Assembly (NCBI GenBank): GCA_030710605.1
Contig: CP092886.1
Coordinates: 47,407,794-47,471,793 of the forward strand
Direction: 5' to 3'
DNA: 64,000 bases
Origin: Cordylochernes scorpioides
Taxonomy: Eukaryota; Arthropoda; Arachnida; Pseudoscorpiones; Chernetidae
In this document: positions 4,936-60,968 of the stretch, in pieces
Numbering within the stretch: position 1 is the first letter of the stretch
Layout of the letters: every line of letters starts with the position of its first letter
Translations under genes and position numbers: made by a program
The notes under the pieces: model-generated
What the model saw: the letters and a program-made list of their open reading frames with translations, nothing else
The model's database searches: none
What the model was told of the DNA's origin: nothing

Positions 4936-5841
4936 CAGTATAACCTTGTTAATTCGTCGCAAAATAATTCGACACTTGTGATAATTTGAGCATGTCCCCA
5001 CCTCCAGCCTATCAAATAACAAAAGTTATTTGGCAAACGATAATTCGACACCATAAATTATTTGACAGATTTTTAAAATCAAATTCTGACATTGGATCAA
5101 TCTTTTTTTAAATATAAATTTAATGCTAAAATACAATATTTTTTGGCATACATAGCGGCCGGAGTTATTATATGTGCACCGTGCTTAAGAGTGTTACAAT
5201 ACATTGTAAATATCACCGCCGATGTTGCACAATTTTTCTTTACTCCTGCACGAATTACACAGAACTTAAGTGGCCACTAATTGCCAGCATAAACAATGAA
5301 GTAGCAAGTATGTTTAAATGAGTAACAATTTGAAAAAATATAGAAGAGGAAAGGCATGCATGCCTTTTAAAGATTGATTAAGTAGAATGCACACTAAATA
5401 GGGTTCTAGCTTAAAAGCAAACAACAATTAGATTTCTTTAAAGGATAATGATTTTTTAAATAAAATATTTAGCCATTTCTATATTTTTAAATTTATTTGC
5501 TTTCTTCCTATTGCATTTATTCACTTAGATTAAAATAGAATTTATTATTTTCTTTTGTCCTAAAAAATATATTTTAATGCAGTTTTATATTTATCACTAG
5601 AAGTTAATCATGAAAATAGTCTGAAAAAAAAAAGTTCAAATGGTATCAATTCACCCATCATTAATTAAGATATATATCAAAAGTATTTTCAAAAAATATT
5701 TTTAAAATTATATATTTGGTAACCTCAGAAAAATGTTCACTAGCAGTGAATGTTGTGATGAAATCATCTAACTTTAATTCAACACCTATTTTAATTTAAC
5801 TGAAAGCTCTGATCCCATGGGGTGTTGAATTAAAGAGACTG
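4936..5841 (+). mobile_element. Pogo-like DNA element Q, copy in block A
   Basis: The left end is TA then CAGTATAACCTTGTTAATTC; the right end is GTTGAATTAAAGAGACTG then TA. TA flanks and CAGT ends fit the pogo/Tigger group. An internal frame at 5092-5280 matches, at protein level, the frame on the minus strand at 62781-62999, so both are likely remnants of the element's own coding region. No complete transposase remains and it cannot be autonomous. Other parts of the family lie at 51187-54131 (split), 59147-59300, 62700-63173 and 63605 onwards. Confidence 0.65.
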
Positions 5842-5859
5842 TAGTTAGCTTCCCATCTA

Positions 5860-6884
5860 ATTGGGAATTTTGGGATTTGGGAATCTTATTGGGAATTTCT
5901 TGGAGCACAGAAAAAAATCATCATTCTGGGCAACTTTGTGACCCCAGCACATGGAACATCGGTCAAAATCAGCACATTAGTAAACTACTGGAAGGAGCCA
6001 TCGCTATATAGTCCCCTTTTCTCCATAGTCTCTCTCTTGTTGGGCAGGCTAGAGCGGCTATTAGTCTGGTGCTCTCATCAGTCTTCTACCCTCTCAGGCC
6101 TACCTGTCCAGTGACACTTTCATCTCAAGACTGTATGCAAGATTGGCGCGGTTTGTTTGGTGTCTTGATCACACTGCGTAGCTTCCCGGCAGCGTTCTGG
6201 CATGTCCTGTGTCCGTCGGTGATGTGGGGTTATTGGACATCAGCACCTAACTCCAGTTCGCCTGCTTTAAGAGGGTTCAGGCTTCACAAAGAGCTGGAGG
6301 TAAGAACGCCTACTCATGGCTGGCAGACTCTGGGACATGGATGGAACCCTTGTCTTCGTGTTCCTGGGTGCTGTCACGTCGTCGTCGGCTGCTGGAATTC
6401 TGGGAACAGGCCTTTTCCATCCTGGGCCTGAACCACTGGGTGGTGCCCACTCCCATCCTACTGAACCTGCACCACGTCGGCGCCTGCCGGTTCCTCTCGC
6501 CTCCATCATTTCAAGCTCCCTCAAGGTGGGTCGGAGTACGAGCGCCGCTCAATACCAGGCGACAAGGAGGGTCCACTAGGACGTAGTTCCCATGGATCAT
6601 TCTGCCAACTTCTGCTGACCGAAAATGCTAGGAGGGATTACAAGGAGAGGTCCTTGGAGAAAGCCGTGGTGCTGTGCAGGATGACTACTCCATTTCTGCA
6701 GAAGAATACGTAGATCGCAAAATATGTGGTGTGCTGGAGACCCACTGGCGATTCTCCACCAAACCCTGCAGCAGTGGCAGAGGTGCCATATTCATGGTTT
6801 ATAGTATCACGCATATAGACTGTGCACTTTTGCATGTACTGACAAGATGTCAATAAAATTATTTTAATTGTGTCAAAAAAAAAA
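5860..6884 (+). pseudogene. LINE 3' end with polyadenylation signal and poly(A), block A
   Basis: The segment is GC-richer than its surroundings and holds broken reading frames. A readable piece around 6110-6270 resembles the region just after the RT of LINEs (a ...FVW...LPGSVLACPVSVG... stretch). It ends with AATAAA at 6852-6857 and about ten A at 6875-6884. The same unit recurs at 54145-55520 with a SINE inserted. It may belong to the same family as the LINEs at 19.2-21.2 and 56.9-58.3 kb, which have a similar composition; that link is inferred. Confidence 0.55.
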
Positions 6885-7940: not shown

Positions 7941-7962
7941 ATATAATCTAACAACACAGTCT

Positions 7963-8195
7963 TTGCCGGTCCTAAGCCCAGATGAAAAAGGAGAAGGGGG
8001 AGCAGTAACAAGCTCACTAAAAAACCTGGGCTCAGCTGGCCTGGCTGATAGTACCTTATAAGGGCTCCTAATCCAGGAATACAGGATGAGCAGCGTTTGT
8101 ACTCTAAGTTAGGAGCGACTGCACATGGCGTCTGTTCCTCATGTCAGAGGTGGCCATTTCTTTTGGAGCTAAGTCGGCCTGCCACTGAGAGGGTA
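7963..8195 (+). mobile_element. SINE family 2, 5' part
   Basis: It begins TTTGCCGGTCCTAAGCCC and matches the reverse complement of the copies at 21335-21700, 33115-33487 and 54413-54773. It stops abruptly at 8195, where a SINE family 1 copy begins in the opposite orientation, so the family 2 tail is missing. Confidence 0.65.
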
Positions 8196-10525: not shown

Positions 10526-10586
10526 ATCAAAAATGATAAAAATATATGAATAAATAGATGTAAATTTATAAAATAATTGGTAAATA

Positions 10587-10836
10587 CAGTAGAACCTCTC
10601 AATAGTGAACCCCAATGGGACAGAGCTTTTGGTTCACTATAGCCACGGTTTGCTCATTTTTTCCCTTTTCAAAATTTTTAGATCGTATAAAGGACAGCCA
10701 TACACACAGGAAAAGACTACCTCTTAATAGTGATCTCTTTGTTTTAATTCCCTAAATTTACCTATTTTTAATATTAATACTGAATATCAAAAGAAGTAAT
10801 TTGATAGGTTCTATTTATTAGCATACATGTACCTCT
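10587..10836 (+). mobile_element. Element P copy 2, left part
   Basis: It starts TA-CAGTAGAACCTCTCAATAG and follows the family consensus to about 10836, where GC-rich LINE sequence begins. The rest of this copy appears to continue at about 16204-16954 and 18017-18165, so it was split by the LINE and by a piggyBac-like element. Confidence 0.6.
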
Positions 10837-13149: not shown

Positions 13150-14316
13150 GTCAAACTCTCCCTCGCCCTCCGCAACCTCCGATTCAAGAAGTCCTGTGGG
13201 CTTGACTTCCTTTGGAAAGCGGGCCGCCTCATCCTTCTCCCTAAAAGCGCTACCTCCACCGACTTCAACCACAACTGCCGCCCCATAATCCTCCTCCCCA
13301 TCCTCGGCAAGCTCCTTGAAAGCCTCATAGCCTTCCGACTCTCACACCACTTTGAGGGTAACAATCTGCTCCACTCTCTCCAATTTGGTTTCCGCCGGAG
13401 GCGCTCCACCACCGACGCCCTTTTCCTTCTCCATCATAACATAAAGCAGTGTGTCTCCAAATTTCAGTGCTGTCTCCTAATCAGCCTTGACGTTAAGTCG
13501 GCCTTTGACCACATGTGGCACCCCGCCCTCTTTGGTCGACTTGTTGCCGCCTCCTGCCCCCTCTCTCTCCTCCAACTCTACCGCTCTTTCCTCTCCAACC
13601 GCTCCATCCACTTCTCCTACCGAGGGTTTTCTCGCTCCACCTCCCCCTCAAGGGGGTGTGCCCAAGGCTCCATCAGTGGTCCCCTCCTCTGTTCTCCCTC
13701 CCCCCCCAGCATCCACGTCCAGGCCTTCGCAGACTATATTCAAATCCTCATCTCAGGTCCTCCCAATAGCCTCCCCTCCCTCGCTCAATCCTCTCTCGAC
13801 CTCATCCACTCCTGGTGCCTTGATAACAAACTCTCCATCACCTCCCATAAGTCCCTGGTCCTACCCATTTTCTGCAACCCTCCCCATCTTCTAATTGATA
13901 ACACCCCCCTCTTCTGTCCCGAAACCCTTACCATCCTTGGCGTCACTTTCGACGACCGTCTTTCCTTCACCCCTCACCTCTACCGAGGCTGCAAAAAGGC
14001 CTCCTCAGTAGGGTCTCCCAATGCTCCAACGCTGCCTCTGAGCTCGGTTTTGTTGCCAGGAGATGCTTCTACCTTGGGGTCGTCGAACCCGCCATCTCCT
14101 ACGCCGCCCCCATCTGGAGCGATACAGCTAAACTCCGCGTCAGTAAGGCAAGCATCCACTCCACTCAACGTAAATTCTGAATTCAAGCCATTCGGGGGTT
14201 CCGCACCGTCTCCACTCTCACTGCCATTGCCCTACTCCGCATCCTTCCCTCGACCTCAAGGTCCTCCTCCTCTCCTCTCTCCTCCTCACCCCAACCCACT
14301 TCCCTTCACCCCTTAA
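13150..14316 (+). pseudogene. Reverse transcriptase domain of the pyrimidine-rich LINE
   Basis: One frame is open for almost 390 codons. It contains the palm and finger signatures of a LINE RT: a CRPIILLPILGKLLE stretch (about 13270), FGFRRRRSTTDA, an SLDVKSAFD aspartate block, GCAQGSISGPLL (about 13657) and FADYIQIL, where the second aspartate of the catalytic FADD is Tyr. That substitution would abolish polymerase activity. A clean LGVTFDD motif follows near 13936. No usable initiation context is seen, since this is the middle of ORF2. Confidence 0.7.
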
Positions 14317-14397
14317 TCCCCCCTTCCCCTTTTCGTTTCCCCTCTCCTCCCGAACATCTCTTTCCCTCTGCTCCCCCCCTCCGCTCCTGACTTCGAC

Positions 14398-15212
14398 TAC
14401 TACACCGACAGATCCAAGTCGCGCAGTGGTGTCGGGGCCGGCATCGCCAGGATCTCTACTTCTCCCCTCTCATCTTGTTTCCCCCCCCTCAATTACTCTA
14501 TCCCCTTGGCCTCCCACTGCTCTGTTTTTCATGCAGAATGCTTTGCCTTTCGAACCGCCCTTACAGATCTTTGCAGTGTCCCCCCTCCCTCTCCGACGCC
14601 ATCTCCTCCGACTGTCTCTCCCTCCTTTCGGCCCTCTATTTTCCACACTCCCCTCACCCTCTCGTCGCCCAGTGCCAAACTCTCCTCTACTCCCTCCTCC
14701 CCTCCCGCAACCTCACCCTCCACTGGGTCAAAGGACACTCCGGGAACCCTGGCAACTGCCAAGCCGACACATTAGCCAAAGGCACTACAGTCTCCCCATC
14801 TCTTCCACCACAATACACTCTTGCATCCAAAACCACCCACCACAGATTCCTCTTCCGCCATTTCTGGTCCCTCTGGAAAGACGAATTCATCTCGGCCAGG
14901 CCCACCTTTTTCTCAAACTCGGCCTCACCCCTAGCTCCCTCTCCTCCTACCATCGCTTCCTCCTCCCAAGCACAGCCATCTCCACCGGTCTTCTCACCGG
15001 CCACTCATTCATCGCCGCCTTTACTCACAGAAAGACTCCCCCACCCTTTCGACCCCACCTGTCCACACTGCAACCAAGCCCCTGAAACAATTGACCACAT
15101 TTTCTTCGATTGCCCAAACCTTGATTTTCTACGCGCCATCTACTTCCATAAATGCCTGACAGATCTCGGTCTCATCCCTACTTCCTTTTCCCAGCTATTC
15201 TCCTCTGGCTAG
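14398..15212 (+). pseudogene. RNase H and C-terminal zinc finger of the pyrimidine-rich LINE
   Basis: The RNase H opens with YYTDRSKS near 14398 (DG of the usual YTDGS changed to DR). After a frame change it continues in the frame open from 14475 to 15212, with LHWVKGHSGNPGNCQAD near 14717 carrying the catalytic His/Asp segment. The C-terminal finger CPHCNQAPETIDHIFFDC is near 15060-15113. An RNase H after the RT places the element in the I/LOA/R1-like assemblage rather than in CR1 or RTE; a finer placement needs a tree. Confidence 0.65.
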
Positions 15213-15899
15213 GCCTGGGCCCTCGCCCTCAATTTTGCACTCATTTGCCCCTCGATTCGTCCCCTCCAACATCCCTCAATCTAGCTCAGACTCTGACACC
15301 TCCACTTAAAACACCCCCTAGCTCCCCCACACCCCTCACTGACCTCTCACCTCTTCCCAAACACTATCCCCTCAACTTTTTGGACTGTTGCCATTACACC
15401 CAACACAACTCCTAGAAATGTGGACATTTGCCACTTTTTTTTTTGTTCCCCTTGCACTTACCCCTCTCCCTTGTCCTTCTTGCCCTCTCTCTCTCCTTGT
15501 TTTACTCTTTGTTTTCTCCCTTTCTTATTACTACTTGTGTACATACCCCTCTTCCTCCTTGTTATTTTAATTGCATTGTTACTCTTTTTTGTTCCCCTTG
15601 TACATACCTCCCTCCCTTTTCCACTCTGCCCTCACTCTCCTTGTTTTGCTATTTTCTTTTGGCTACCTCCTTTTTGCTCCCCGTGTATATACCCCAATTC
15701 CTTCCTGCTATCCTTTTGGTCCAACTCTTTGTCAGCTCCCCTTGTACATATTCCTCCCCCTTTTTTTTGTTCTCTTTTGCCCCCCCCCCCATTCCTACCT
15801 ACTTATCTCTTTAGTCACCTGAAAAAAAAGAAAAAAAAATAATTTCTTAATACTAATTTTCACATGAGAGAGAATTACCATAATAATTAAAAAAAAACT

Positions 15900-16203
15900 T
15901 CCAGGTGCTTCTGAGCTTGAATGTTGTACCTCTTTTCAACCTCCCCTGCCCAGTTCACGACCCCACCCAGCCTCCCAGTCTTCTTCCAGCTCTCCTCTCA
16001 ACCTGCCCACTCACGGGCTGATCCCTGCCACCGCGAATTTACCATCTGCCAGACTTATTTGGAGCCTGGCGCTGTACTTGGTGCTCCCTTGGTGCTCTCT
16101 CTAACCGTGCTCCTGCCCTCTTCTTCCCCGGGCTGCTCACTCGCCCTGCCTGCCCCTCTCCACCGCTCTCCATGGCCTTCCCCCGCGGCGGGCGCAATGT
16201 TGG
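15900..16203 (+). repeat. Second CT/GC-rich fragment, unidentified
   Basis: About 300 bp of GC-rich sequence separated from the LINE tail by AT-rich DNA (15841-15900). It ends where element P-like sequence resumes at about 16204. The composition matches the start of the LINE (10840-11050), so it may be a piece of a second copy. No domain was read in it. Confidence 0.35.
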
Positions 16204-18016: not shown

Positions 18017-18165
18017 TTACAATTTTAAGTTCGTTATGAGCCTAGTATTTTAAATAGATTTTATTATTTTGGACTTAAATTAGGTTTGTTATAGGGGTAT
18101 AGTTTGCTATTTTAAAAATCTAGAAGTTCGTTATAATGATGGTATTTTCAATGGAATGGAATGGC
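18017..18165 (+). mobile_element. Element P copy 2, right part, 3' end missing
   Basis: TTTTAAGTTCGTTATGAGCC... to ...GGTATTTTCAATGGAATGGA follows the family (compare 10120-10230 and 48040-48180). The expected last 70-80 bp with GGGTTTTACTG are absent; at ATGGAATGG the sequence switches to piggyBac transposase. Confidence 0.6.
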
Positions 18166-18893
18166 ATCCTCATCAAGACCTTCAATATAATTCTATATTG
18201 AGCTTAGTTGACAGGATTGCTGAACCTTACTACCAGAAAGGCCACATAATCTATTTCAATAGGTGGTTTTCCTCTCCCCAACTTTTCAATCATTTATGGG
18301 AAAAGAAAACACTTGCAGTAGGAACAGTCAGGCATAACAGAAAGGGATTGCCAAAGAAAATAAGAAGACAGCCTCAAACCATTTCGATAACCAAACCTGC
18401 TATGGTAGTTGACTACAATAAAAATAAGGCTGGTGTTGATAGAAGTGACCAATTTATGGCATATTATCCTTTTCATCGGCGTACTCTAAAGTGGTGGAAA
18501 AAGCTTTTCTTCCACATTTTCGGCCTCACTATTGTCACTAGCCATATTGTATATAATAAATTGACCACGGGTCGAAAAATGCCACTTAGAGAATATCATT
18601 TGGCTATCATGGAAAGGTTGATGGAAGAAGCAGGTACAGAAATTTTGGATGAACAGCCAAGTGCATCTGGATCATCAGATAGGCTGATTGGAAAACATTT
18701 CCTCACCAAAATCCCTGCTACTGGCAAGACCACCATCCAGAAGAGGTGCAAAGTTTGCTCTGACAAAGGAAAAAGATCTGGTAAAAGAGTGAGGAAGGAC
18801 ACCAGCTATATGTGTAAGACCTGTCTGGTTCCTTTATGCATTGCTGACTGTTTCAAGGCCTTTCACACAAAAGAGAGCTACTGGGGGTGATTT
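18156..18893 (+). pseudogene. PiggyBac transposase C-terminal fragment, family 1
   Basis: The frame encodes the last third of a piggyBac transposase: GHIIYFNRWFSS (second catalytic position, Asp replaced by Asn), VVDYNKNKAGVDRSDQ (third Asp present), WWKKLFFHIFGLT, and the C-terminal cysteine-rich finger (CKVCSDKGKRSG ... CKTCLVPLCIADCFKAFH). It aligns with the fuller copy at 44024-45825 but lacks the N-terminus and about 45 residues between the RKGLPK and VDYNK segments. The apparent start at 18156 lies in element P sequence, so it is a junction artefact and not a real initiation site. Not functional. Confidence 0.75.
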
Positions 18894-21334: not shown

Positions 21335-21700
21335 CTTCTTCTTCTTTCTTATCTCCACTCAATCATTAGGGTATCAAGTTGTGACCCTTGAAGGTATTTG
21401 ACAACCATCATTACTGGGTGAAGTAGAATGCGTCTGCCTTTGTCATTAAGACTGGGAGCACTACTCAGTGGCAGGCCGATTTAGCTCCAAAAGAAATGGC
21501 TGCCTCTGACATGAGGAACAGACGCCATGTGCAGCCGCTCCTAACATGGAGTACAAACGCTGCTCATCCTGTATTCCTAGATTAGGAGCCCTTACAGGGT
21601 ACTATCAGCCAGGCCAGCTGAACCCAGGTTTTTTAGCGAGCTTGTTACTGCTCCCCCTCCTCCTTTTTCATCCGGGCTTGGGACCGGCAAAGGCGGAGTT
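21335..21700 (-). mobile_element. SINE family 2, full copy with target duplication
   Basis: The 366-bp unit is flanked by the perfect 12-bp direct repeat ATGTTAACTAAT (21323-21334 and 21701-21712). On the minus strand it starts AACTCCGCCTTTGCCGGTCC and ends in a GAAGAAGAAG-type tail. The long target duplication and simple tail indicate LINE-driven retroposition. Confidence 0.8.
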
Positions 21701-23441: not shown

Positions 23442-25448
23442 TTATTTGATTGTTGTCATATTTGATATTTGGGGTCCATTTTTAAGGTGGTTGTTTATTG
23501 TAAATACTCCTACTTCGGATTTATTAGGGTTTATAATTAATTTCATTTTTTCCGCAAAGTATTGGAGTTTTTTCAGCGCCTTGTTTACATTTTTGTTTGC
23601 TTCCTTGAGATCTCTCTTTGAGGACCAGATGATTATGTCGTCGGCATAGAGAGCAAAGTCGCAGTATTTTGTGATTCTAGAGTCCATGTAATTCAGATAG
23701 ATTGAGAATAGTAGGGGGCTTAGTATGGATCCCTGAGGGAGTCCCTGGAAGAGCGTGCCAGTTTTTGATAGTTGTTCTTTGAAGTTAACCTGGAAGGTCC
23801 TTCCGGTCAGAAAGGATCCAATCCAACCCATCATCTTCCCCCTTATACCTAGTTTGTCCAGCTTCTTAATTAATCTTTCTTTCCACACTCTATCAAAAGC
23901 CTGGCTTAAGTCTATAAAAGCGGCTATGGTAGACTTGGTTGGTTTACTTTGGAAGTTGTCTTGAATTTTCTGTGTGAAGTAGAAAATCTGGTCTATTGTG
24001 TTATGATATTTTTTGAAAGCTGCCTGCTGTTTTGTAAGTACCTTGTTTTTGTTTAGGAAGTATTGCATTCTATTTAGTATCATGCGCTCCATAAGTTTGC
24101 ATGGTATGGAGGTTAGTGATATTGGTCTATAATTCTGTGGGTGGTTTTCTGTTTTTCCTGCTTTATGGATGGGGATTATGATTGCATGCTTCCATTCTTT
24201 AGGTAAGGTGCTGCTTGACCAGCTTAGATTAATTATGTGAAGGAGCTCTAAAATGGCGTTTGTTTCTAGGTGTTTTATCATTTTGGCTGATATGATGTCT
24301 GAACCTGGGGTTTTGTTATCATCTAATCTATTTATAGCTTCTTTTAGTTCATGAGGTAAAAATGGCTTGTGGAATAAGTCTTGGTGAGATGTTGTTTTGG
24401 CCTCGTTTCTTATCTTTTTTGATATGTGAAGTACTTTCTTATCTTGCCTCGTAAAGTTTAGTTTGGAGATTTGTGTATAGTAATCAGCAAAGAGGTTTGA
24501 TATTTGGGTTCGTTCTGTGAGTACGTTGCCATCTTTGTCTGTGAAGGTATTTGAGGTTGTTGAGTACGGAGTTTCTTGGTTTATAGATTTAATTAATTTC
24601 CAGAGTTTCGTATCTCTTGTATGTGGGCCTAGGTTGCTACAGATATCCCTCCACTTCCTCTGTTTTAGTTGATTTGCTTTCTGTCGCACTTGGGCCGAAA
24701 GTTTGTTGAGGTTTATTTTATTTTCAAGTTCATTGTTTTCCATGAGGTATTCTTGGGCCTGATTTCTTTGAGTTATTTCATTTTGTAGGCTGTTAATTGT
24801 TTCAATATATCCTGGGATGTATTGCTTTCTGTTTCCTCTGGGGATGGTTTTCTTGGCAGCTTTGAGTACTGTGGTTTTCCATTTTTTCCATTTACTATTT
24901 AATTGTTGTTTGTCATTCGTTATTTTTGGTGTGAGGTTGGATTCTTGTCTAAATTTGGTCCAATCTGCCTTTCTGTAATTCCAATAAAGTTTCTTGGGCA
25001 GTGCTTCCTCCTTTATTTCAGTTGCTGTTGTTGTAAGCAGGGGGAGATGGTCGCTCCCTACTCCCTCTAAGACTTGGGTGAGGGTCTGATGGGCTAGTTG
25101 TTGAGTAGTTATCACCAAATCCAGGGTTTGGGGAGTACCATAGGAGTTAGATACGTAGGTAGGTCCCTCAGAAATGCAAAGGAGATCAGTATTGTCCAGG
25201 TAGTTACTGAGTGCTTCTCCGCAGTTGTTTGTCTCATTGCAACCCCAGGTGGGGTGTTCGGAGTTGAAGTCTCCTAAAAGGATTGTTTTGTCTGTTAGAA
25301 GGTATGTAATTTGTTGAAGTTCTGGTCCTGGTTTATCTGGGGGGTGGTAGATATTGAAAAGTAGAATTGGTTCTCCTGTTTCCTGGTATAATTTTATTCC
25401 CTGTATTTCTGTCTGGTTTGTTGGGGGGATGATTATTTCTTCGAAGTT
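23442..25448 (-). pseudogene. Endonuclease C-terminus and reverse transcriptase of LINE L4
   Basis: The frame is open from the truncation point to 23442. The endonuclease end shows LLGDFNSEHPTWGC (about 25285-25245) and GVGSDHLPLL (about 25060), both part of the AP-endonuclease active site. The RT contains YRPISLTSIPCKLMER, QQAAFKKYHNTIDQI (FR of the usual motif changed), AAFIDLSQAFDRVW, GLPQGSILSPLLF and ALYADDIIIW (about 23655-23626) with both catalytic Asp present. The frame is lost at 23442 and continues at 22801-23364. A computed start at 25118 is only an internal codon. Confidence 0.85.
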
Positions 25449-33114: not shown

Positions 33115-33487
33115 TCTTCTTTTTATTTCTTATCTCCACTCAACCATATTAGGGTATCAAGTTGTGACCCTTGATGGTGTCTGTTTTACAACTATCATAA
33201 TTGGGGAAAGAAAAATGCGTCTGCCTTTGTCATTAAAATTGGGAACACTACTCAGTGGCAGGTCGACTTAGCTTCAAAAGAAATGGCCGCCACTGACATG
33301 AGGAACAGACGCCATGTGCAGCGGTTCCTATCAAAGAGTACAAACGCTGCTCATCGTATCCCTGGATTATGAGCCCTTACAGGGTACTATCAGCCTGACC
33401 AGCTGAGCCCAGGTTTTTTACCGAACTTGTTACTGCTCCCTCTCCTCCCCCCTTTTCATCAGGGTTTGGGACTGGCAAAGGCAGAGT
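33115..33487 (-). mobile_element. SINE family 2
   Basis: The minus-strand copy runs from GCCTTTGCCAGTCCCAAACC to the tail GATAAGAAATAAAAAGAAG. It lies about 90 bp below the candidate exon X7, within what would be an intron. Confidence 0.7.
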
Positions 33488-36605: not shown

Positions 36606-37863
36606 GTAAAAATGAGGAATTGCTAGAATTTATTGTAGACAGTGGCTCAACAAGCCATATGATAAATAGTAAAAAGTTTTTACTAGATGAAGTAGATTGC
36701 AACTCAAAAATATCAATATCAAAAAAAGGAAGAAACTCTAATAGCAAAATCAGTCGGAAAAATTCAAGGGAAAAAAATGTGATCTCAAGGAGGTGATGTT
36801 TGTACCAAACTTGACAAATAATTTACTATCGGTAAGTGCCATTACCAGAAATAAAGGCAAAGTCGTCTTTGAAGATGAAAAGGTATTTGTCGTAAAAAAT
36901 GGAAAAAAAGTTTTAGAAGGAGAAAAACAGGAAAATGGACTCTATACAATAAATATAGAAACAGAAAACCCCGAAATTGAAGAATCTCACCTAACAGCTA
37001 CCCAAAATGAAGAAATGCTAAAATGGCACAGAAAAATGGGTCACATAAGTTTTTCAAGCTTAAAACAATTAAAATATATGGTAAATGGAATAAACATAGA
37101 AAAAATAAGTCAAGATGAAATTTGTGAAACATGCATTAAAGCTAAACAGGTAAGAAAACCATTCAATTCCATTAGAACAAAATCAAAAAGGCCTTTAGAA
37201 ATAATCCATACAGATGTATGTGGACCTTTAGATCCCACTACCCATGACAACAAAAACTATTTTCTAACATTTCTTGATGACTACACACATTTTTGTCATG
37301 TGTATTTGTTACAAAATAAATATGAAGTAAAAGGATATCTAAAAGAATTTATTACAGAAGCAGAAAACCAAATGAATCTAAAAGTTTCAAAAATAAGATG
37401 TGACAATGGCGGAGAATATGTAAATGAAGATATAAAATCCTGGTGCAAAGCTAAAGGAATCATTTTGGATCTCACCATACCTCACTCACCTCAGCTAAAC
37501 GGCAAAGCCGAAAGATTAAATAGAACCCTGATGGAGAAAACTAGAGCTCTTTTGATTGATTCTGGTGTAGAAAAATACATGTGGGGAGAAGCTGTAAGGG
37601 TTTCAGCCTATTTGCTGAACCGAAGCCCTACTCAAGAATTAGAGAAAACCCCTGCAGAACTTTGGTTCAACAAAAGACCAAATTTGTCAAACTTTCAACT
37701 TTTTGGTTGTGAAGCTTATGTCAAAACCCTAAAACACATAAAGAAATTGGAAGACAGAAGTAAAAAATATACCTTTATAGGTTATGCACCAAATGGTTAT
37801 CGCCTTTGGGATGAACAAAGCAAACGAATCTTTACAGCTAGAGATGTGATTTTTTTTAGATAA
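36580..37863 (+). pseudogene. Copia protease and integrase, frame-shifted
   Basis: The protease carries the DSGSTSHM active site (about 36640-36663) in a frame different from gag; the switch is beside a run of six T and could be a natural gag-pol frameshift or a break. Further frame changes lie at runs of seven A near 36725 and 36771. From 36793 one frame holds the GAG-pre-integrase region (WHRKMGHISFSSL), the zinc motif (CETCIKAKQ) and the integrase core: HTDVCGPL, CDNGGEY and NGKAERLNRTL, so the D, D and E residues are present. It ends at a run of eight T near 37851. Confidence 0.85.
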
Positions 37864-39595
37864 AGGATGTATAAATAAAGAAGAAAATAAACCTATTGTC
37901 GAACCAGAAGAAGAATCCGAAGATCAAATAGAATTAAATGAAGAACCAAGTCTACCAGAAGTCTCTGAAGACAAAGAAGATATCCCTACAAAACCAAGTA
38001 CTTCAAAATATAATATTAGACCAAGAAGTAGTTTACAAACACCATCAAGATATGAAGACTTCTATTTAGAGCAGGATGGAACAACAGAATCAGCTCTTCT
38101 AACTTACTCTGAAGCTATATCTGGTCCAAATCAAGAAAAATGGAAAAAGGCAATAAAAGAAGAAAAAGAGTCTCTTGCCAAAAATGAAGTTTGGGAAATA
38201 GTAAAAGAAAATGAAGCGTCAAACAAGAAGATTCTGACCTCTAAATGGCTCTTTAAAGTGAAAGAAGATGGTCGCTACAAAGCAAGACTAGTTGTAAGAG
38301 GCTTTGAACAAGAAGCAGGCATTGATTATGATGAGACATTCAGTCCAGTTATAAGCACTGTCTCTTTAAGGATATACTTTGCTCTAATGGCTAAGAGAAG
38401 GTTTGTTTTTAAAACATTTGACATAAAAACAGCTTTTCTATATGGGTTTTTGGATGAAGAAATATATGTTCAATTGCCAGAAGGTTATAAAGGGAATATA
38501 TGTAGGTTAAGAAAGGCATTGTATGGTTTAAAGCAAGCCCCATTAAAATGGAATGAAAGATTAAAAACCTTTCTCAAATCCCAAGATTTCATACAACTAA
38601 AATCAGAGCCATGTCTTTTTAAAACCAACAAAGGAAATATGTACCTTGCAATATATGTAGATGATGGTATCTTAATGGGAGATAATGAAGAAGAATTAAA
38701 TAATATTTTAGAAAAACTATCCCAAGAGTTTGAAGTTAAAATAAACAATGATCCAAGAACTTTTTTGCGAATAAATTTGTGTTTTGAGGGAAAAAATAAA
38801 ATTTTACTTTCACAAGAAAATTATGCAAAATCAGTTCTTGAAAGATATAATATGCAAAACTCAAAACCAGTACCCACTCCCATTACAGATGTAGCAAAAG
38901 AATTAGACAAAAACTTAGAAATATCAAATGATAACAAATTTCCCTACAGACAAGCAATTGGAAGCCTTTTATATTTGACAAACAAAACTAGACCAGACAT
39001 GACCTTTGCCACAAATTTTGAAAGCAGGTCAATGCATGATCCTACAACTCAAGATATTATAAACATCAAAAGAACCCTAAGATATTTAAATCACCCCACC
39101 AATTTAGGCATATCATATGATGGAGAGATGCCATTTGAATTAAATGTGTATTGTGATTCTGACTTTGCTGGAGATATTAAAACTAGAAAAAGTACCACAG
39201 GATATGTAGTTTACTTTTGTGGAGGTCCTATAAGTTGGTGCTCCAGAAAGCAACCTGTAATTGCCCTTTCCAGCACTGAAGCAGAGTTCATTGCTGCAGC
39301 AGATGCATGCAAAGAAGTGTCATACATAAGATCCCTATTAGAAGAATTAATTCCAGATAATTTTGATATAAATCTCTATGTTGATAACCAAAGCACTATA
39401 AAAATTATAAAATCAGGCCAATTCACCACTAAAACTAAACATATTGATGTCAAATATCATTTTGTGAAAGATCAACCTCAAAAGTTTAACCTGATATATT
39501 GTCCAACAGAACACCAAATTGCAGACATCCTAACAAAACCTCTAGCCAGACCAAAGTTTGACAAATTCAAATCCCTTCTTATGACAACCATTTAA
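37860..39595 (+). pseudogene. Copia reverse transcriptase and RNase H
   Basis: After the frame change the sequence is open from about 37862 through the RT to TAA at 39593-39595; 38258 is merely an internal Met. RT motifs are WLFKVKEDGRYKARLVVRGF, FDIKTAFLYG, KALYGLKQAPLKWNE and AIYVDDGIL (catalytic Asp pair at about 38658). RNase H has YCDSDFAGD, STEAEFIAA, VDNQSTIKI and HIDVKYHFVKD. The catalytic residues are intact. A single run-length difference separates it from the integrase frame. Confidence 0.9.
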
Positions 39596-43632: not shown

Positions 43633-46135
43633 CACTTCGAGGACGCAGGACGTCAATTAACGTCCTCGTGAAAATGGCACAGTGCCCGCAGGACGTATAT
43701 TAACGTCCTACTTTCTTAAAAATCGGTATAAAATCATAGCGCGCGCTACGTCCCGTGGCCACTTGCCCTCCTGCAAGTTTAAACATGCCTCAAGGTCGTT
43801 CACCACTTTGCCACGTGACAGGGTGGATGGCTGACCAATTAAATTGAGTTTTGAGTGCGCGCTTCCTCGAGTTTCCTCCCCTCCCAACCTCTACTGACCT
43901 ATTTTTAATCTGCCGTCATTTGCCAATTGTACTTTGCGCGCTTCTTCTTGTCACGTTTTTTTTTTTTGCTTAATATTTTTATTTGAAGTTTCTAATATTT
44001 TCAATAGACATTTTTGGATAAAAATGAATCCTGATCAGCCCAGTACATCCAAAGTTATCTCCTCTTGCCCATCTCCAGAGTGGGAGATGTATGACCCCCA
44101 TCTTTTTGATTCTGGATCAGAATTAGATGATTCTTTTGAGGATCCAGATTTCACACTCCATGCTAACTTTGATGAAGATATTGATTCGGATTCAACAGAA
44201 ATATATTTGGAGGGACCAAGAGATGAAGAGGCTCCTGCAACAACAAGGTCTCCTCTGGTAAGTGATGACTGGATTGAAACTACTACATCCACGATACCCA
44301 GACCTCTGTTTACTGCCCAACCTGGACCAAGGGCCGAGTTATTTCCAGAACCCAACTCTCCTTACCAGATTTCCAAAAAATTTATTGATGAGGATTTTTT
44401 TGGTAATCTGAAACTTGAGACTAACCGCTATGCTAGGGCAACCATAGACAGAGAAAGAAAAAATGGTCCTTTGAATCCTAGGAGTCATTTAGAAATGTGG
44501 AAAGCTGTTTCTGTGTCTGAGCTCAAGATATTTATGGCTATAATAATTCACATGAGCCTTGTTGTAAAGACCAGATTGAAAGATTATTGGTCAACCCGCA
44601 GTGAACTTAGGACAACTTACTGCAGAGATGTGGGGATGATCAGACCACGGTTTGAAGCCATTCTCTCCATGCTTCACCTAAATGACAACGCTTCCTATGT
44701 GGCTTTTGGTCAACCAGGCCATGATCCTCTCCATAAAATTAGGACATTCCTTGATCCTCTGGTCCACAAATTCAAAACATATTACTATCCCTGCCAACCT
44801 TTGACTATTGACGAAGCTATATGTCCTTTTAGAGGAAGAATACGGTTCAGAATATATATCAAAGGAAAGCCACACAAATATGGGATAAAGATATTTGAAC
44901 TTTGTGAATCAAGTTCAGGATATGCCTGCAACATAGAAGTATACACAGGGAAGCAGCCTGGTCAAGGTGCAGACTACAATTCGACCTTAAAACTGGTGGA
45001 AAGGATAGCGGCTCCATACTTCATTAGAGGACATGTTATATACTTTGACAGATGGTTCTCCTCTACCACACTTTTTCAATTTCTCTGGAGAAACAATACC
45101 CAATCTGTGGGAACAATAAAAAAAATAGAAGAGGCTTGCCAAAAAATGCATTTTCCAAAAAAATGAAAAAAGGAGAGGTAATTTACAGAATGAAAGGTCC
45201 TCTTTTGGCATTCAAATGGCATGATACTAGGGACGTTTTCATGGTCTCCACAGCACATGATCATGCCATGATACCTGTAACCAAGAAAGCCAGGAAATCT
45301 GACCAACCTCTCACCATGAAACCAGCTGCAGTATTGGACTACAACAAGCACAAGGCTGGTGTTGACAGAAGTGACCAGCTCCTCTCTTACTACTCTTTTC
45401 AGCGGAGAACTATGAAATGGTGGAAAAGGCTTTTCTTTCACATCTTTGGCCTGACAATAGTCAATTCTCATATAATTTATAATAAATTAAATCCAACATC
45501 CAAACTGTCACTCCGAGACTACCATCTTGTCATTATGGAAAAATTGGTTGAAGAAGCCGGAGTTGAGATCACAGATCAACAACTTGGTAGTTCAAGCTCA
45601 AAAGCCAGACTTTTGGAGAGACACTTCATTACAAGAATAAAAGAAGAAAACAAGCCAAATGTAAATATCCAACAAAAATGCAAAGTCTGTGCTGAAAAAG
45701 GAAAAAGTGCCACTGGAAAAAGAATAAGGAAGGACACTGCTTATATGTGCAAGACCTGCCTTGTTCCTCTGTGTATAAATGATTGTTTTGAGGCTTTTCA
45801 CATCAAGGAGAAGTATTGGCTTTAATTGGCTCTTAGAAATGGCCTTTATAAATAGTTCTTACTAATTTTCAGCATGTTTTTTGTATATATAACATTTGTC
45901 TATGTGTTGGAGTGAATTTAGTTTTTTTTTTTTTATATAATTTTTAATTTTTTATTTCTTTATCAAAATTCATTTTATATAGCATTAAAAATAATTTTAA
46001 ACCCTATATATATTGGCTTATAAATTTGGCATATATTACTAAAATAAATATATTAAATTTTATTTTTCATAAAAGTGTCTTTTTTACTGCATCCTGGTGG
46101 ACCATGAGGTCTGCTTAGGCTGCGTCCTCGAAGTG
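43633..46135 (+). mobile_element. Complete piggyBac-like element, family 1
   Basis: It is 2503 bp, flanked by TTAA on both sides (43629-43632, 46136-46139), with 16-bp inverted ends CACTTCGAGGACGCAG. Two palindromic AACGTCCT-type motifs lie just inside the left end. One transposase gene fills the middle and is broken once. It sits in a unit of the 285-bp tandem repeat. Confidence 0.9.
44024..45825 (+). pseudogene. PiggyBac transposase with a single frameshift
   Basis: The ATG at 44024 (AAAATGAATCC) starts an acidic N-terminus (MNPDQPSTSKV), followed by the DDE_Tnp_1_7 domain. Catalytic Asp positions are visible in PLTIDEAICPFRGR (about 44805), HVIYFDRWFSS (about 45037) and VLDYNKHKAGVDRSDQ (about 45337). 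The C-terminus has the usual cysteine-rich finger (CKVCAEKGKSATG ... CKTCLVPLCINDCFEAFH). The frame is lost at a run of eight A near 45118-45125 and continues one frame over to TAA at 45823-45825. Apart from that run the gene looks intact, about 600 residues, so the break may be recent or an assembly error. The 3' flank has an AT-rich UTR. Confidence 0.9.
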
Positions 46136-50870: not shown

Positions 50871-51318
50871 TGTTCAACTTTCCTCCATGTCTGTCCATAA
50901 AGCTTGTGAGCAATTTTTAATATACTTTCAGGCTACATATAAGTCTGGAATTTTGTATTTTCCCCAATTCAGATAATAATGCAAGTATACAAATTTTCAG
51001 ACTTCTAGGTGGTTGGGAATGAACCAATTTCTACATTCCTTTTAAATCTTGTTTTTCAATCATCATTCAATCATAAATACAATGTCTGTGTGTGATGCAT
51101 GATTTCAACTCAGAAACTGTTGGGAGTTTAGACTTACATTTTTTTTCAGTGATTGTTAAAGACTTCAAAAGAGAAGGAAATCCCAATACAGTATAACCTT
51201 GTTAATTCGTCACACAATAATTCGACACTTGTGATAATTTGAGCATGTTCCCACCTCCAGCCTATCAAATAGTCTGAAAAAAAATTAAAAAGTTCAAATG
51301 GTATCAACTCACCCATTA

Positions 51319-53932
51319 CACAGGTCTACAAAAAAAAACTTTTTTTTTTTTTGCACAAGAGAACCTGATGGTGTTTCTTGTGTAACTTTTCATGCTGAAC
51401 TCAAAAATCTAATCAGAAATTTCCCATCACCCATGGTTTTTGCCTGATGGTCTTTTTTTAGTATTGGGATAAATACAGTAATAAATGCAACCAATGTTAC
51501 GTAAGCATTTTTAAAGTTACATCATTAACTAAGCTAGCGCTTTATTTTTGACAAGAAGAGTTGGTATGTGGAGCCAAAAGCTTTATTTTATTTGTTATTA
51601 ATTAAATTTTGCTCTTTAAGAATCATAAATATTAATTTAAATAACAAATTATTGAAATTTTAATTGAATATATATAATTTATTATTATATAATATTATAA
51701 TCTGTTTTGCTTTCAACTCAAAAATAACGACAAGCTCTGTAATGCTATTTGCTCATTAACAGTTTTAATATATATATTTAAATTGAACCTACCGATTTGT
51801 TTACTAGATTTGCAGCAGAAGTGACAGGTAAATTTGAAGTGATTAGTTTATTCTTCTCTATCGATTTGCTTTTATAAATCGTGTGCACTAGACTGTGTCA
51901 ATATGCCGAGGCATTGCATTAATATTCCTGATATTTTCTGTTATATATGTGGGGAATTAACTTTCAAAGTTCAAAGGCGAAACTTTATACCGCTCATCAA
52001 AAAGTGCTATGAACTTTATTTTGGCTTTAAAGTCGGTGACCAAGATAAGACTTGGGCTCCTCACCATTGTTGTGTAATTTGTGTTCGACATCTTACAGGG
52101 TGGATTAAAGGTGAATGTCATATGCCTTTTGCGGTTCCAATGATATGGAGGGAACCTAAAGACCATTCTTCAGACTGTAATTTTTGTTTGACAAAGACTA
52201 CATGTATTACATCCAAATCAAGACATACAGTTGAATATCCAGATTTGCCTTCTGCTATGAGACCGGTTCCTCATAGTGATATTTTACCTGTTCCACAGCC
52301 TCCTGAAAATGTAATATTTAGTGACGATGATTCAGATAGACGAGAGCAACAGTGGGATGACACAAATTTTGAAGCAGGTGCTTTATCTGAACCTCATTTA
52401 TTAACCCAAGGAGATTTGAACGACCTCATACGTGATTTAGATTTATCCAAAAAACAGAGTGAAGTTTTAGGCTCTAGGTTAAAAGGCTGGAATCTGCTGC
52501 ATAAAGGCACAAAAGTATGCTTTTTTCGCAAGCGTCAATATGAATTTCAAGACTTCTTTTCACAAGAGAATGATTTAGTATATTGCAATGATGTTGTTAG
52601 TCTAATGGAAGCGCTTGGTCATGACCATGATACAGAAGAGTGGCGTTTATTCATTGATTCTTCAAAAATTAGTATGAAAGCTGTTCTCCTTCACAATGGA
52701 AATAAGTTCCCATCAGTGCCAATAGCACATGCATCCAACATGAAAGAGACTTACGAAAACATGAAACTGCTTTTGAAAAAGATAGAATATGAAAGATACG
52801 GTTGGAAAATATGCAGCGATTTGAAAGTCGTTGCTCTCTTGCGTGGATTACAGCTTGGATATACAAAATTTTGTTGTTTTCTGTGTGAGTGGAATAGCAG
52901 AGATAGGGAAAGGCATTACATTTAAAAAAATCTGGCCAAACCGTAAAATCTTTACTCCAGGATATAAAAATATTGCAAATCTACCCCTGATCGATTCAGA
53001 AAATATTTACTTACCACCATTACATATTAAACTGGGATTAATGAAGAACTTTGTCAAGGCAATGGATCGAAATGCCAGTGGATTTGCCTACCTAAAACAA
53101 AAATTTTCTAGTATAAGTGAAGCGAAGATTAAAGAAGGCATTTTCGTTGGACCTCAGATTCGAGAATTGCAGCAGGATGGAAATTTTCAAAATAGTTTGA
53201 ATGAAGTTAAAGCAGCAGCATGGAATTCCTTTAGAAACGTTTGCAAAAACTTCTTAGGAAGTGTCAAGGTTGAAAATTACCGAGACATAGTTCATACACA
53301 CTACAAGGCACTGGGATGTAACATGTCCCTCAAGATCCATTTCCTGCATTCACATCTAGATTTCTTTCCAGACAATCTTGGCGCAGTTAGCGATGAGCAT
53401 GGTGAGAGGTTTCATCAAGATATATCAAGCATGGAGAAGCGGTACCAAGGTAAATGGAGTCCCGCTATGCTTGCCGACTACTGCTGGACACTCAAGAGGG
53501 ATCTACCACAAGCAAAGTATAGAAGAAAATCCACTGTCGCTCTGCTTTTCAATAAATAAATATGTTTTGTTCATATATTTCTATATATTAACAATATTTC
53601 CAAATTTCAAGTAGGTGTATCTCAGAAATATTACGTAATAGAAAAAAACTAATGGTATATTTGGATTCAGGACTTGTAGATAAGATGCTATTTCTTTGTG
53701 TACAAAGAAAAATATTTTTTGATAAACTAGTGTAATGTAATAAGGGTTATGCAAAACTGCTTACGTAACATTGTTTGCATTTTTTACTTCATTTATCCCA
53801 ATACTAAAAAAAGACCGTCACGCAAAAACCATAGGTGATGGGAAATTTCTGATTAGATTTTTGAGTTCAGCATGAAAAGTTACACTAGAAACATAATCAG
53901 GTTCTCTTGTGCAAAAATCTTGTTGACCAGTG
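51319..53932 (+). mobile_element. DNA transposon with long inverted repeats, unclassified
   Basis: The ends CACAGGTCTACAA and TTGTTGACCAGTG are the outer parts of inverted repeats of about 130-150 bp, including AATCAGAAATTTCCCATCAC near 51412 and its complement near 53840. Block A provides the approximate empty site. The target duplication cannot be fixed: TTA-like bases lie at both sides, and an extra TGTGCGTGTG follows the right end. One gene of about 1.65 kb fills the interior. Confidence 0.8.
51903..53559 (+). pseudogene. Transposase-like protein of the unclassified transposon, one frameshift
   Basis: ATG at 51903 (CAATATGCC) opens a frame to 52925; the same protein continues in the next frame (FKKIWPNRK...) to TAA near 53559. 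The break is in AAAAAAA at 52922-52928. The N-terminus is cysteine-rich (FCYICGEL, HHCCVICVRHLTGWIKG, CNFCLTKT), a probable zinc-binding DNA-recognition region. Three conserved-looking acidic spots are FIDSSK (about residue 252), CSDLKVVALL (about 305) followed by CCFLCEW, and SDEHGERFHQDIS in the second frame. They would suit an RNase H-fold D-D-E transposase with a C-x2-C insert, but this is inference. I know similar proteins as uncharacterised ones in aphids and other invertebrates. Confidence 0.7.
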
Positions 53933-54144
53933 TGTGCGTGTGTTATTAATTAAGATATATATCAAAAGTATTTTCAAAAAATATTTTTAAAATTATATAT
54001 TTGGTAATCTCAGAAAAATGTCCACTAGCAGTGAATATTGTGACGAAATCATCAAACTTTAATTCAACACTTATTTTAATTTAACCGAAAGCTCTGATCC
54101 CTTGGGGTGTTGAATTAAAGAGGTTAGACTGTAGTTAGCTTCCC

Positions 54145-55523
54145 ATCTAATTGGAAATTTTGGGATTTGGGAAATTTGGGGATCCCATTGGGAATTTCTT
54201 GGAGCGCACAGAAAAAAATTACCATTCTGGGCACCCCCGTCACCCCGGGACATGGAACATCGGTACAAGATCAGCACATAAGTTAACTACTGAAAGGAGC
54301 TATCGCTATCTGGTCCTCTTTTATCGGCAGTCTCTCTCTTGGTGGGCACGCGAGAGTGGTCAATAGTCTGGTGCTGTCATCAGTCTTCTACTATCTTCAG
54401 GCCTACCTTATTCTTCTTTCTTATCTCCACTCAATCATATTAGGATATCAAGTTGTGGCCCTTGATGGTGCTGTTTGACAACCATCATGACTGGATGAAG
54501 TAGAATGTGTCTGCCTTTGTCATTAAGACTGGGAGCACTACTCAGTGGCAGGCCGACTTAGCTCCAAAAGAAATGGCCGCCTCTGACATGAGGAACAGAC
54601 GCCATGTGCAGCTGCTCCTAACATGGAGTACAAACACTGCTCATCCTGTATCCCTGGATTAGGAGCCCTTACAGGGTACTATCAACCGGGCCAGCTGAAT
54701 CCAGATATTTTTAGCGAGCTTGTTACTGCTCCCCCTCCTTTTTCATCCGGGCTTGGGACCGGCAAAGGCGAAGTGAGACTTTCATCTCAAGACTGGCGCG
54801 ATTTGTTTGGAGTCTTGACCGCACTGTGCGACTTCCCGGCAGCGTTCTGGCGTGTCCTGTGTCCGTCGGTGGCGTGAGATTATTGGACATCAGCACCCAA
54901 CTCCAGCTCGCCTGGAGAATGCCTACTCATGGCTGGCGGACTCTGGGACCTGGATGGCTCCCTTGTCTTCGAGTTCCTGGGTGTTTCCCTGTCGCATCGG
55001 CTGCTGCAACTCTGGAAACAGGCCTCTTCCATCCTGGGCCTGAACCACCGGGTGTTGCCCACTCCCACCCACTGAACCTGCCCCTTGTCAGCGCCTGCAT
55101 GTTTCTGGCGATTCCATCGCTTCAAGCTCTCTCAAGATGGGTCAGAGTGCGAGTCTGAGACATAGCGGGCCTTGATTCACTGCTCAATACCAGGACGACA
55201 AGAAGTGTCCATGAGAATGCAGTTGCCCATGGATCATTCTGCCAGCGTCTGCTGATCGAGAAATGCTAGGAGCGATTACCAGGAGAGGTCCTTGGAGAAA
55301 GCCATGGTGTTGCACGGGATGACTACTCCGTTTTTTCAGAAGAATACATATATCGCAAAATGCGTGGTGTCGCTGGAGACTCACTGGCGATTCTCCACCA
55401 AACTCTGCAGCAGTGGCAGAGGTGTCCTATTCATGGTACATAGTATCATGCATATAGACTGTGCACTTTTGCATGTATTGACAAGATGTCAATAAAATTA
55501 TTTTAATTGTCAAAAAAAAAAAA
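54145..55523 (+). pseudogene. LINE 3' end, block B copy, with SINE inside
   Basis: It matches 5860-6884, ending with AATAAA at about 55492 and poly(A) near 55513-55523. A SINE family 2 copy divides it at the position equivalent to 6108. Reading frames are broken. Confidence 0.55.
54413..54773 (-). mobile_element. SINE family 2 in block B
   Basis: Minus-strand copy from TTCGCCTTTGCCGGTCCCAA to the tail GATAAGAAAGAAGAA. Block A lacks it at the matching place, so it arrived after the duplication. Confidence 0.75.
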
Positions 55524-55670: not shown

Positions 55671-56585
55671 TTAAAATATACAAGTATCAGAGTCATCAAT
55701 CAACAATTCTGTCACCGTTTGCTTTTGTGAATGGAATAAATACCCAAATATGGCCATTTTTTATAAGCATCGGTGGTTCAGTGGTAGAATGCTCGCCTGC
55801 CACGCGGGCGGCCCGGGTTCGATTCCCGGCCAATGGATTTTTTTTTTTTTTTTTACAATTTTTAAAACTCATTTATATTATTATTAAAATATACAAGTAT
55901 CAGAGTCATCAATTCTGTCATTGTTTGCTTTTGTGAATGGAATGCTTTTATGTAAAATACGTAACTAATATGAAATTTTAGCAGTATGTATAGTAGAATC
56001 TGGAAAAACCTATATTGAATATTTCAGGTCTCTATCCCGAATATTCTTCAAGTTATTTGCAAATTTGCTCTTTCGCTCGCAAGCAGAGCCTCTAGCGGTG
56101 AAGATGGGAGGTAATATCAGCTGACCTAATGTACATGTAAAATGTGTTTTAACAGGACATAGAAAAAAATATGGAAGAGATATTTGTCGCATTTTTAGCC
56201 AAGAAAAATTGAAATTGACAGGTTCTGGGCAAAAATAGTTGTTTTTTTTAAGTCAGAAAATGATTATGACAATATTGCTGTATCATATTTGATTATCAGA
56301 TACAAAATTATATCCGGAAAAATTCCAAAAAGCAGAGACCACGGGTGAAGCCAGTTCATTTTTAGTATGCAGGAACAAAATTCTAACAGAAAAACATCAT
56401 TCGAGCAGAAGACACAAAGCCAGATCATCTCTTTATAAAAATATCGCTTCTCAGACACAAAATTTGGAGCGGGACGTTTCACAAGAATGACATCCACGGC
56501 GCCAATTTATAATTGTAACGAATAGTATTTTAATAAAAGCATTTAATCGGGTAAAATCCAGGCGTTGCCCGGGTCATTTGGCTAG
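55671..56585 (+). mobile_element. Helitron family H carrying a tRNA-like gene
   Basis: The filled site is GTGAATAA-(915 bp)-TATCT; block A has the uninterrupted GTGAATAATATCT at about 7040. The 3' end shows a GGCGTTGCC-type hairpin, GGTCATTTGGCTAG and T, and the target is A|T without duplication. The 5' end sequence (ATACAAGTATCAGAGTCATC ... CTGTCACCGTTTGC) occurs twice, at 55677-55740 and 55890-55943, with the tRNA-like gene between. No Rep/helicase frame is present. Confidence 0.75.
55767..55837 (+). tRNA. tRNA-Gly(GCC)-like gene or pseudogene
   Basis: 71 bp with an A box TGGTTCAGTGG, anticodon loop CTGCCAC (anticodon GCC, 55799-55801), a GGGCGG region and a perfect B box GGTTCGATTCC. A run of T follows directly as a pol III terminator. 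The acceptor stem GCATCGG/CCAATGG has two mismatches (G1 with G, C5 with A), so it may be a recent pseudogene. It lies inside a Helitron. Confidence 0.8.
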
Positions 56586-56935
56586 TATCTATATAAATAT
56601 GTCTGTCTGTCCATCTGTCTGGCTGTGATGCTTGATTTCAACTCTGAAGCTGCTGGGAGTTGAGACTTACTTTTTAAAGAGGAAGAAATTCAAAAATTCA
56701 GGTCTCTATATCAAACCTTTTTGGAATTACAGGCAAAAAAAAATCAATATAAATATTAATTTATCTGTTTATATAAAAGGGTGTACCTGAATCTGTGAAA
56801 GAAAAAAGAATAAAAAATTATTTCACAGATCCAGGTACGCCCTTTTTCATATAAACATATTCAATGGATCGCCTTTTGACTCAAACAATTAATTTTTCTG
56901 TTATAATTAAGTATTCTGCCTCAAAAAATCATCAA
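56586..56935 (+). repeat. Helitron-like start at end of block B
   Basis: TATCTATATAAATATGTCTG and following bases match 7045-7480. It ends where a LINE begins near 56938. Confidence 0.4.
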
Positions 56936-59685: not shown

Positions 59686-60968
59686 TTAGGAGTACAAATA
59701 AGTTTTGAGGGATTTTTTTATAAATTCGCTTTATTCAGAGAAATCAGTACAATATATTTCATTCAAAGTATTGTCCATCTTTAGCTACAACCTTTTCCCA
59801 TCTTTCAGGCAGCATACGGATTCTGTGTCGAAAAAATTCCTCTTCTTTTGAGGCGATCCAAACATTGACCCAATTTTTCGCCTCTTCGTAAGAAGTGAAG
59901 TGCTGCTCGGCCAGGCCATGTGTCATCGAACGGAACATGTGGTAGTCTGAAGGAGCAATGTCTGGTGAATACAGCGGGTGAGGTAGGACATCCCATTGAA
60001 GCGCCTCCAAAGTCTCCTTGACAACTTTTGCAACATGTGGCCGAGCGTTGTCGTGCTGATAGATCACCTTGTCATGTCTTTTGGCATATAGTGGGCGTTT
60101 AATCTTCAATGCTCGGCTTAATCGCATCAATTGCTGTTGGTAACGTTCTCCAGTGATAGTTTCGTTAGGCTGAAGTAGCTCATAGTAGATCACTCCGAGC
60201 TGATCCCACCAGATGCACAGCATTAGCTTCTTGCCATGAATATTCGGTTTGGCCGTTGAAGTTGATGCATGACCGGGCTTAACCCACGATTTTCTGCGCT
60301 TTGGGTTGTCGTAGTGAATCCACTTTTCGTCCCCCGTCACGATTCGATGCAAAAAACCCTTCCGATTTTGTCTTTTGAGCAGTAGTTCGCACGTGCAAAT
60401 ATGGCGCTCGATGTTTCCTGGCTTGAGTTCATATGAAACCCAATTTCCTTGTTTTTGCACCATACCCATGACCTTGAGACGGTTCGAAATCGCTTGTTGA
60501 GTCACTCCCAAGGTTTCAGCGAGCTCCTCTTGAGTTTGGCTTGAATCTTCGTCCAATAAAGCCTCCAACTCAGCGTCTTCGAACTTTATTGGCCTCCCTC
60601 CGCGTTCTTTGTCTCTGGTGTCAAAATCGCCACTTTTGAAACGCCGAAACCAGTACTCACATGATTTTATTGATAGAGCATGTTTAGCATATGCCTCACA
60701 CAGCAATCGATGTCCATCAGTTGCACTTTTCTTCAAATTAAAACAAAAAAGCAGCGCTTCCCGCAAATTGTGTTTTGTTGGCAAAAAGGTTGACATGGTT
60801 AGAGCACCAAAAAAAAAAGTTCCTTACACTTGAGTGAAAAGACTTCTTCTGATTTTTTTGGGGAAATGATGAAGCCTTAACATGAAACCTTACAAGGTCC
60901 GATGCTATTTATATAATATTTGTTGTGGCTTCTTTTGCAAATCCCTCAAAACTTATTTGTACTCCCAA
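59686..60968 (-). mobile_element. Complete mariner element, Mos1-like
   Basis: 1283 bp with matching ends GGAGTACAAATAAGTTTTGA and TCAAAACTTATTTGTACTCC and TA duplications (59684-59685, 60969-60970). The size is that of Drosophila Mos1 (about 1286 bp). The transposase frame is unbroken. Confidence 0.92.
59759..60796 (-). CDS. Mariner transposase, intact, DD34D
   Basis: The ATG at 60796-60794 (ACCATGTCA) opens a 345-residue protein with no stop or shift, the same length as Mos1 transposase. The N-terminal half has two helix-turn-helix regions (around residues 12-60 and 70-112) for binding the inverted repeats. A linker motif WVSYEL (119-124) replaces the usual WVPHEL. The catalytic Asp triad is D156 (TGDEKW), D249 (QHDNARPH) and D284 (APSDYHMF), with 34 residues between the last two. 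The enzyme cuts and pastes the element at TA. All features expected of an active copy are visible; activity itself is not shown. Confidence 0.95.
   Translation of the reverse strand: MSTFLPTKHNLREALLFCFNLKKSATDGHRLLCEAYAKHALSIKSCEYWFRRFKSGDFDTRDKERGGRPIKFEDAELEALLDEDSSQTQEELAETLGVTQQAISNRLKVMGMVQKQGNWVSYELKPGNIERHICTCELLLKRQNRKGFLHRIVTGDEKWIHYDNPKRRKSWVKPGHASTSTAKPNIHGKKLMLCIWWDQLGVIYYELLQPNETITGERYQQQLMRLSRALKIKRPLYAKRHDKVIYQHDNARPHVAKVVKETLEALQWDVLPHPLYSPDIAPSDYHMFRSMTHGLAEQHFTSYEEAKNWVNVWIASKEEEFFRHRIRMLPERWEKVVAKDGQYFE

Follow-up and report, generated by a model that had tools for sequence, protein, structure and literature searches.

The element and its transposase gene

The window analyzed here is a 64,000-nucleotide stretch of contig C24 of the pseudoscorpion Cordylochernes scorpioides (C24:47407794-47471793; the genome is 2.62 Gb in 24 contigs). 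Positions 51319-53932 of the window are occupied by a 2,614-bp DNA transposon with CAC...GTG termini, which carries inverted repeats of 165 nt that are 93% identical to each other (Table 1). Inverted repeats of about 130 bp had been predicted; they are indeed present, but longer. An 81-nt piece of them occurs twice in the window, versus no occurrence in 100 shuffles. The left outer terminus reads CACAGGTCTACA and the right one CACTGGTCAACA. Between each terminus and the inner arm is an A/T-rich run that differs in length at the two ends, so that 29 bases lie outside the inner arm at the left end and 15 at the right end. With up to two mismatches allowed, the outer terminus was found seven times in the window, versus 4.8 expected; no extra ends therefore stand out beyond the element's own two. 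A search of Rfam gave no match within positions 51000-54300.

Table 1. Positions of the window copy, its flanks and its empty site
Feature	Position in window	Strand	Remarks
Left target duplication	51316..51318		TTA, preceded by A; flank of the copy
Left terminal inverted repeat	51319..51512	+	Outer terminus CACAGGTCTACA, A/T-rich run, 165-nt arm at 51348-51512
Transposase gene, 5' part	51903..52925	+	340 aa; Cys-rich N-terminus, D252, D306, C(2)C; frame lost close to the end
Transposase gene, 3' part	52831..53559	+	Other frame; LH, H(4)H, E501/E504; the listed ORF begins in the overlap
Right terminal inverted repeat	53753..53932	-	165-nt arm at 53753-53917, end TGTTGACCAGTG
Extra TG-rich bases	53933..53942		10 bases separating the GTG end from the right target duplication
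Right target duplication	53943..53945		TTA, followed by T
Paralogous empty site	5614..6105	+	Uninterrupted host repeat, 87%; TCA in place of TTA

Intact copies of the element contain one ORF of 552 aa and no intron. The reading frame of the window copy is interrupted near 52.9 kb, which splits the gene over two frames and leaves this copy unable to make the full protein. In what follows, residues are numbered according to one intact copy (P0001). The protein has a Cys/His-rich N-terminus with CxxC at positions 13, 57, and 92, and contains the FIDSSK, CSDLK, and SDEHGERFHQ blocks, in agreement with the original prediction of a cysteine-rich N-terminal region and three acidic blocks. From the N- to the C-terminus, the motifs are D252, D306, C325-C328, L373-H374, H482-H487, and E501/E504; 53 residues separate D252 from D306, and 194 separate D306 from E501. 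The acidic blocks plausibly form a D-D-E arrangement. The order C..C, LH, H....H was reproduced in 12 of 20,000 shuffles of residues 307-500, a figure that is a guide only, since the motifs were looked up with the protein already in view.

Other mobile elements are represented elsewhere in the window. An uninterrupted 345-aa mariner-type transposase ORF lies at 59759-60796 on the minus strand (Transposase_1, E 5.9e-28, with a Mos1-type HTH_48 domain). Two transposase genes with DDE_Tnp_1_7 and zf-Tnp_2 domains, which we take to be piggyBac-like, are found on the plus strand at 43934-45825, where the gene is split over two overlapping frames, and at 18156-18890. Also on the plus strand are a 1,045-aa ORF (135-3272) that combines a Pao-type peptidase domain with a long repetitive stretch rich in serine, and pieces of a Copia-like integrase and reverse transcriptase (rve and RVT_2, 36793-39595), while a LINE-like reverse transcriptase ORF of 558 aa (RVT_1) is located on the minus strand at 23442-25118. 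The region 10001-16000 (plus strand) has a strong GC skew (-0.31 to -0.55), a raised GC content (0.47-0.55), and proline-rich overlapping ORFs.

Homology and structure searches

No significant Pfam family was detected with the window ORFs, with the intact protein, or with two parts of the protein. A match to RAG1_imp_bd was at chance level (E 5.2 and 5.8), and PF06918 (DUF1280), which is equated with Chapaev transposases in a section of PMC3985635, was not among the Pfam matches at E<=10. When the genome was searched for PF06918, neither the search nor its controls produced a match, so that this search carries no information. Searches of PDB sequences, run with the protein itself as well as a profile of 15 rows, gave chance-level matches only. 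Protein searches found no relatives outside the host in IMG/VR, GTDB genomes, and phages, collections in which animal genomes are few or absent. Degenerate motif patterns retrieved 2, 12, 3, 0, and 8 loci, and the best tblastn match of the protein against these loci had an E-value of 0.075. The string GERFHQ was not found in the text of open-licence papers.

AlphaFold models of the whole protein and of residues 226-552, computed from an alignment of 15 near-identical proteins (97-99%), were of low confidence (mean pLDDT 30.6 and 39.1, respectively). The second model contains three strands, the first of which ends in D252, followed by a helix; D306 is located at the start of a helix, and E501/E504 in a late helix. 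This order would suit an RNase H fold, and is given no weight at a mean pLDDT of 39. Foldseek returned 331 matches to the second model at E<=10 and none at E<=0.001, with no transposase among the 50 matches listed.

Copies in the genome and their age

A DNA search of the same genome yielded 3,913 first-look candidates, 40 of which were scored. All 40 are copies of the element, 95-100% identical to it. Thirty-eight align over the entire length of the query (1-2614) and two stop early, which bears out the prediction of a transposon with clear ends at 51319-53932; by the stricter measure of a single blastn alignment, positions 1-2614 are covered in 34 of the same 40. Nine of the 40 copies have the intact 552-aa ORF. 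In a protein search of the genome (13,423 first-look candidates, 79 scored), residues 1-552 could be read without a stop at 20 places.

Divergence was measured in 36 of the 40 copies (L002, L037, L038, and L040 excluded). Their mean pairwise identity is 98.3%, the ratio of replacement to silent changes per site is 0.91, and 31 variants create stops. For variants common to at least three copies, the ratio is 0.67, on 3 silent and 8 replacement variants only. Taken together, these figures point to a recent burst of copying, with nearly neutral decay since then.

A GERFHQD pattern, which permits synonymous changes only, plus Ser for Arg, was found at 2,091 genomic places, versus 0 for the control. 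The exact spelling of the element's family is present at 1,393 of these; the remaining 698 are a mixture of point variants of this family and clearly different spellings. Such other spellings suggest that older related families or subfamilies exist.

Target site duplication and empty sites

Alignment of genomic copies, which the original prediction had proposed as a way to define the ends and the target duplication, did both. The right end was not recognized in three of the 40 copies (L037, L038, and L040). Among the 37 copies with both ends, 34 have CAC...GTG ends flanked by an identical 3-mer (20 TAA, 12 TTA, 1 ATA, and 1 TAT); the duplication is thus TWA in 32 of the 37. Unmatched 3-mers were observed in L035 (TTA/TAA) and in the window copy, L001, and another copy, L002 (both TTA/TGT). 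Of the 34 matched copies, 28 have an A directly before the duplication and a T directly after it; the other six comprise three cases of G..T, two of A..C, and one of A..A. The same preference is seen genome-wide. The exact right end, TTGTTGACCAGTG, occurs 2,504 times, versus 30 times for a reversed control, and TWAT follows directly in 2,005 of the 2,504, versus 0 in the control and about 2% expected from base composition (at ca. 65% A+T, the value for this part of the window).

Joined flanks were available for 36 copies (L001, L002, and the 34 whose duplications match), and for nine of them an empty site spanning the junction was found. Since the sequence searched represents only a small part of the genome, nothing follows from the lack of a partner for the other 27 flanks. 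Seven of the nine empty sites are clean (L001, L002, L007, L012, L028, L032, and L033, with L001 and L002 counted as one event), and two (L011 and L030) have gaps at the junction. The best empty site of L007 lies inside the window, at 56006-56586; this copy has two further matches, to more distant copies of the repeat in which the duplicated 3-mer is different. For the L032/L046 insertion, located on C24 near 113.25 Mb, an empty target copy is present nearby and is 100% identical over 386 bp, which suggests either a young insertion or a homogenized local repeat. The 3-bp target duplication is confirmed by the empty sites.

In the window copy, as in L002, TTAT appears beyond the ten TG-rich bases, and we conclude that the duplication is TTA. 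Among the 40 copies, these ten bases are confined to L001 and L002. When the flanks of L001 are joined with a single TTA, they match the uninterrupted host repeat listed in Table 1. If "block A", by which the ends had been defined in the original prediction, is this interrupted flanking repeat, its use was justified. Further copies of the host repeats that flank the element are found in the window at 4439-5018, 5614-6105, 7961-8189, 21335-21699, and 33116-33482. L002 is located ca. 325 kb from L001 on the same contig; the right flanks of the two are 99.3% identical over 1,500 bp, and the left flanks 98.7% identical over 854 bp. Because of these shared flanks, L001 and L002 most likely descend from a single insertion, the locus having been duplicated afterwards. 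About 600 bp near the left end are absent beside L001 and are kept in L002 and in the empty repeat.

Probable assignment to the Chapaev3 group

We consider it very probable that the element belongs to the Chapaev3 group of the CMC (CACTA-Mirage-Chapaev) DNA transposons and moves by a cut-and-paste mechanism. Since the searches gave no significant Pfam or PDB match, no Rfam match, no Foldseek match at E<=0.001, and no relative outside the host within the collections examined, the assignment is based on the ends, the target site, the empty sites, the size, and the motif order. As described in the parts of PMC4079192 that deal with these elements, Chapaev transposons have CAC/GTG ends, Chapaev as a whole generates a 3-4 bp duplication, and C(2)C, LH, and H(4)H motifs are given for the Chapaev superfamily as a whole. 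All Chapaev3 elements considered there duplicate TWA and are inserted between A and T. Most of them are apparently single-exon, and their sizes are exemplified by Garfield_BM (2,289 bp, a 556-aa transposase) and Merrow_PM (2,451 bp, 78 plus 484 aa). The pseudoscorpion element has the CAC/GTG ends, the 3-bp TWA duplication, the A/T context (in 28 of 34 copies here versus always in the account of PMC4079192), and the C(2)C, LH, and H(4)H motifs between D306 and E501 of its predicted catalytic site. According to a section of PMC4411706, Chapaev3 has a Chapa zinc-finger domain at the N-terminus; the Cys/His-rich N-terminus of the present protein would suit such a domain. The original prediction, that the overall pattern fits no known superfamily, is not supported: ends, duplication, target context, size, and motif order all match Chapaev3 as presented in the relevant parts of PMC4079192. 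The element is probably a family of its own within Chapaev3; most likely it is well preserved but otherwise an ordinary representative of this known animal group.

The closest alternative is that the element represents a separate, unnamed CMC/Transib-like lineage, a clade of its own in which ends, TWA target, and zinc motifs are common with Chapaev3 by descent. The lack of any Pfam match, DUF1280 included, would be in line with this, as would the fact that the filing under Chapaev3 was made by hallmarks rather than by sequence comparison. Every testable Chapaev3 hallmark is nevertheless present, down to the A-TWA-T context, and we regard a separate lineage as unlikely. In parts of PMC4411706, Chapaev, Chapaev3, and Transib are placed in one superfamily and Chapaev3 is grouped with Transib and RAG1. 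Also unlikely is a deep sister clade of Chapaev3 within this RAG1/Transib/CMC assemblage, abundant in the present genome and represented elsewhere only by uncharacterized proteins; in that case, the intact copies would be a compact new RAG1 relative with defined ends.

PIF/Harbinger-type elements, according to the sections of PMC4482050 that describe them, also generate a 3-bp TWA duplication, and most candidate autonomous ones contain a second ORF with a Myb/SANT domain. The present element has one 552-aa ORF, and among unspliced ORFs of at least 60 aa in 51319-53932 there is no second long one beyond short overlapping frames. Pfam matched the protein to no transposase, C(2)C and H(4)H lie between D306 and E501, and the ends are CAC/GTG. 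A PIF/Harbinger origin is accordingly very improbable. The broken frame of the window copy is what might be expected of a host repeat that was never mobile and whose inverted repeats are fortuitous. This explanation, to which we assign hardly any probability, is refuted by the empty sites, the matched target duplications, and the many near-identical copies.

For this Chapaev3-like family of recent amplification, the exact ends, the target site, and intact frames are now available. They help to annotate proteins that a general family library misses, as no Pfam model matches the present one. If the family turned out to form a separate branch, the tree around RAG1 would gain one more point; nothing in our results requires that.

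Proposed mechanism and comparison with known systems

The observed ends, target duplications, empty sites, near-identical copies, intact ORFs, and motif order allow a scheme of transposition to be proposed. The N-terminal Cys/His region of the 552-aa transposase would bind the long inverted repeats, and the enzyme would cut at CAC/GTG by means of a putative D-D-E site formed by D252, D306, and either E501 or E504, the chemistry, the choice of the catalytic glutamate, and the fold being predicted. Zinc would be held by C(2)C and H(4)H within an insertion in the D-D-E site. The excised element would then be joined to staggered cuts at A^TWA^T, giving rise to the 3-bp TWA duplication.

CAC-type ends are shared by the element with Chapaev sensu stricto and with Transib/RAG1; the ends of Transib are of this type as well. 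The target duplication of Transib is 5 bp, as opposed to 3 bp in the pseudoscorpion element. PIF/Harbinger (PHIS) elements share the TWA duplication (PMC4482050) and differ in motif set, ends, and the Myb/SANT ORF that most candidate autonomous ones have. Compared by description with the Chapaev3 elements Garfield, Merrow, and Conan, as portrayed in the corresponding parts of PMC4079192, the pseudoscorpion element has the same CAC/GTG ends, A-TWA-T target, and C(2)C-LH-H(4)H motifs, a transposase within the same range of ca. 550-560 aa, and an element size within 2.3-2.6 kb. In the same account, Garfield and Merrow have two exons, whereas the pseudoscorpion element, like most Chapaev3, has one.
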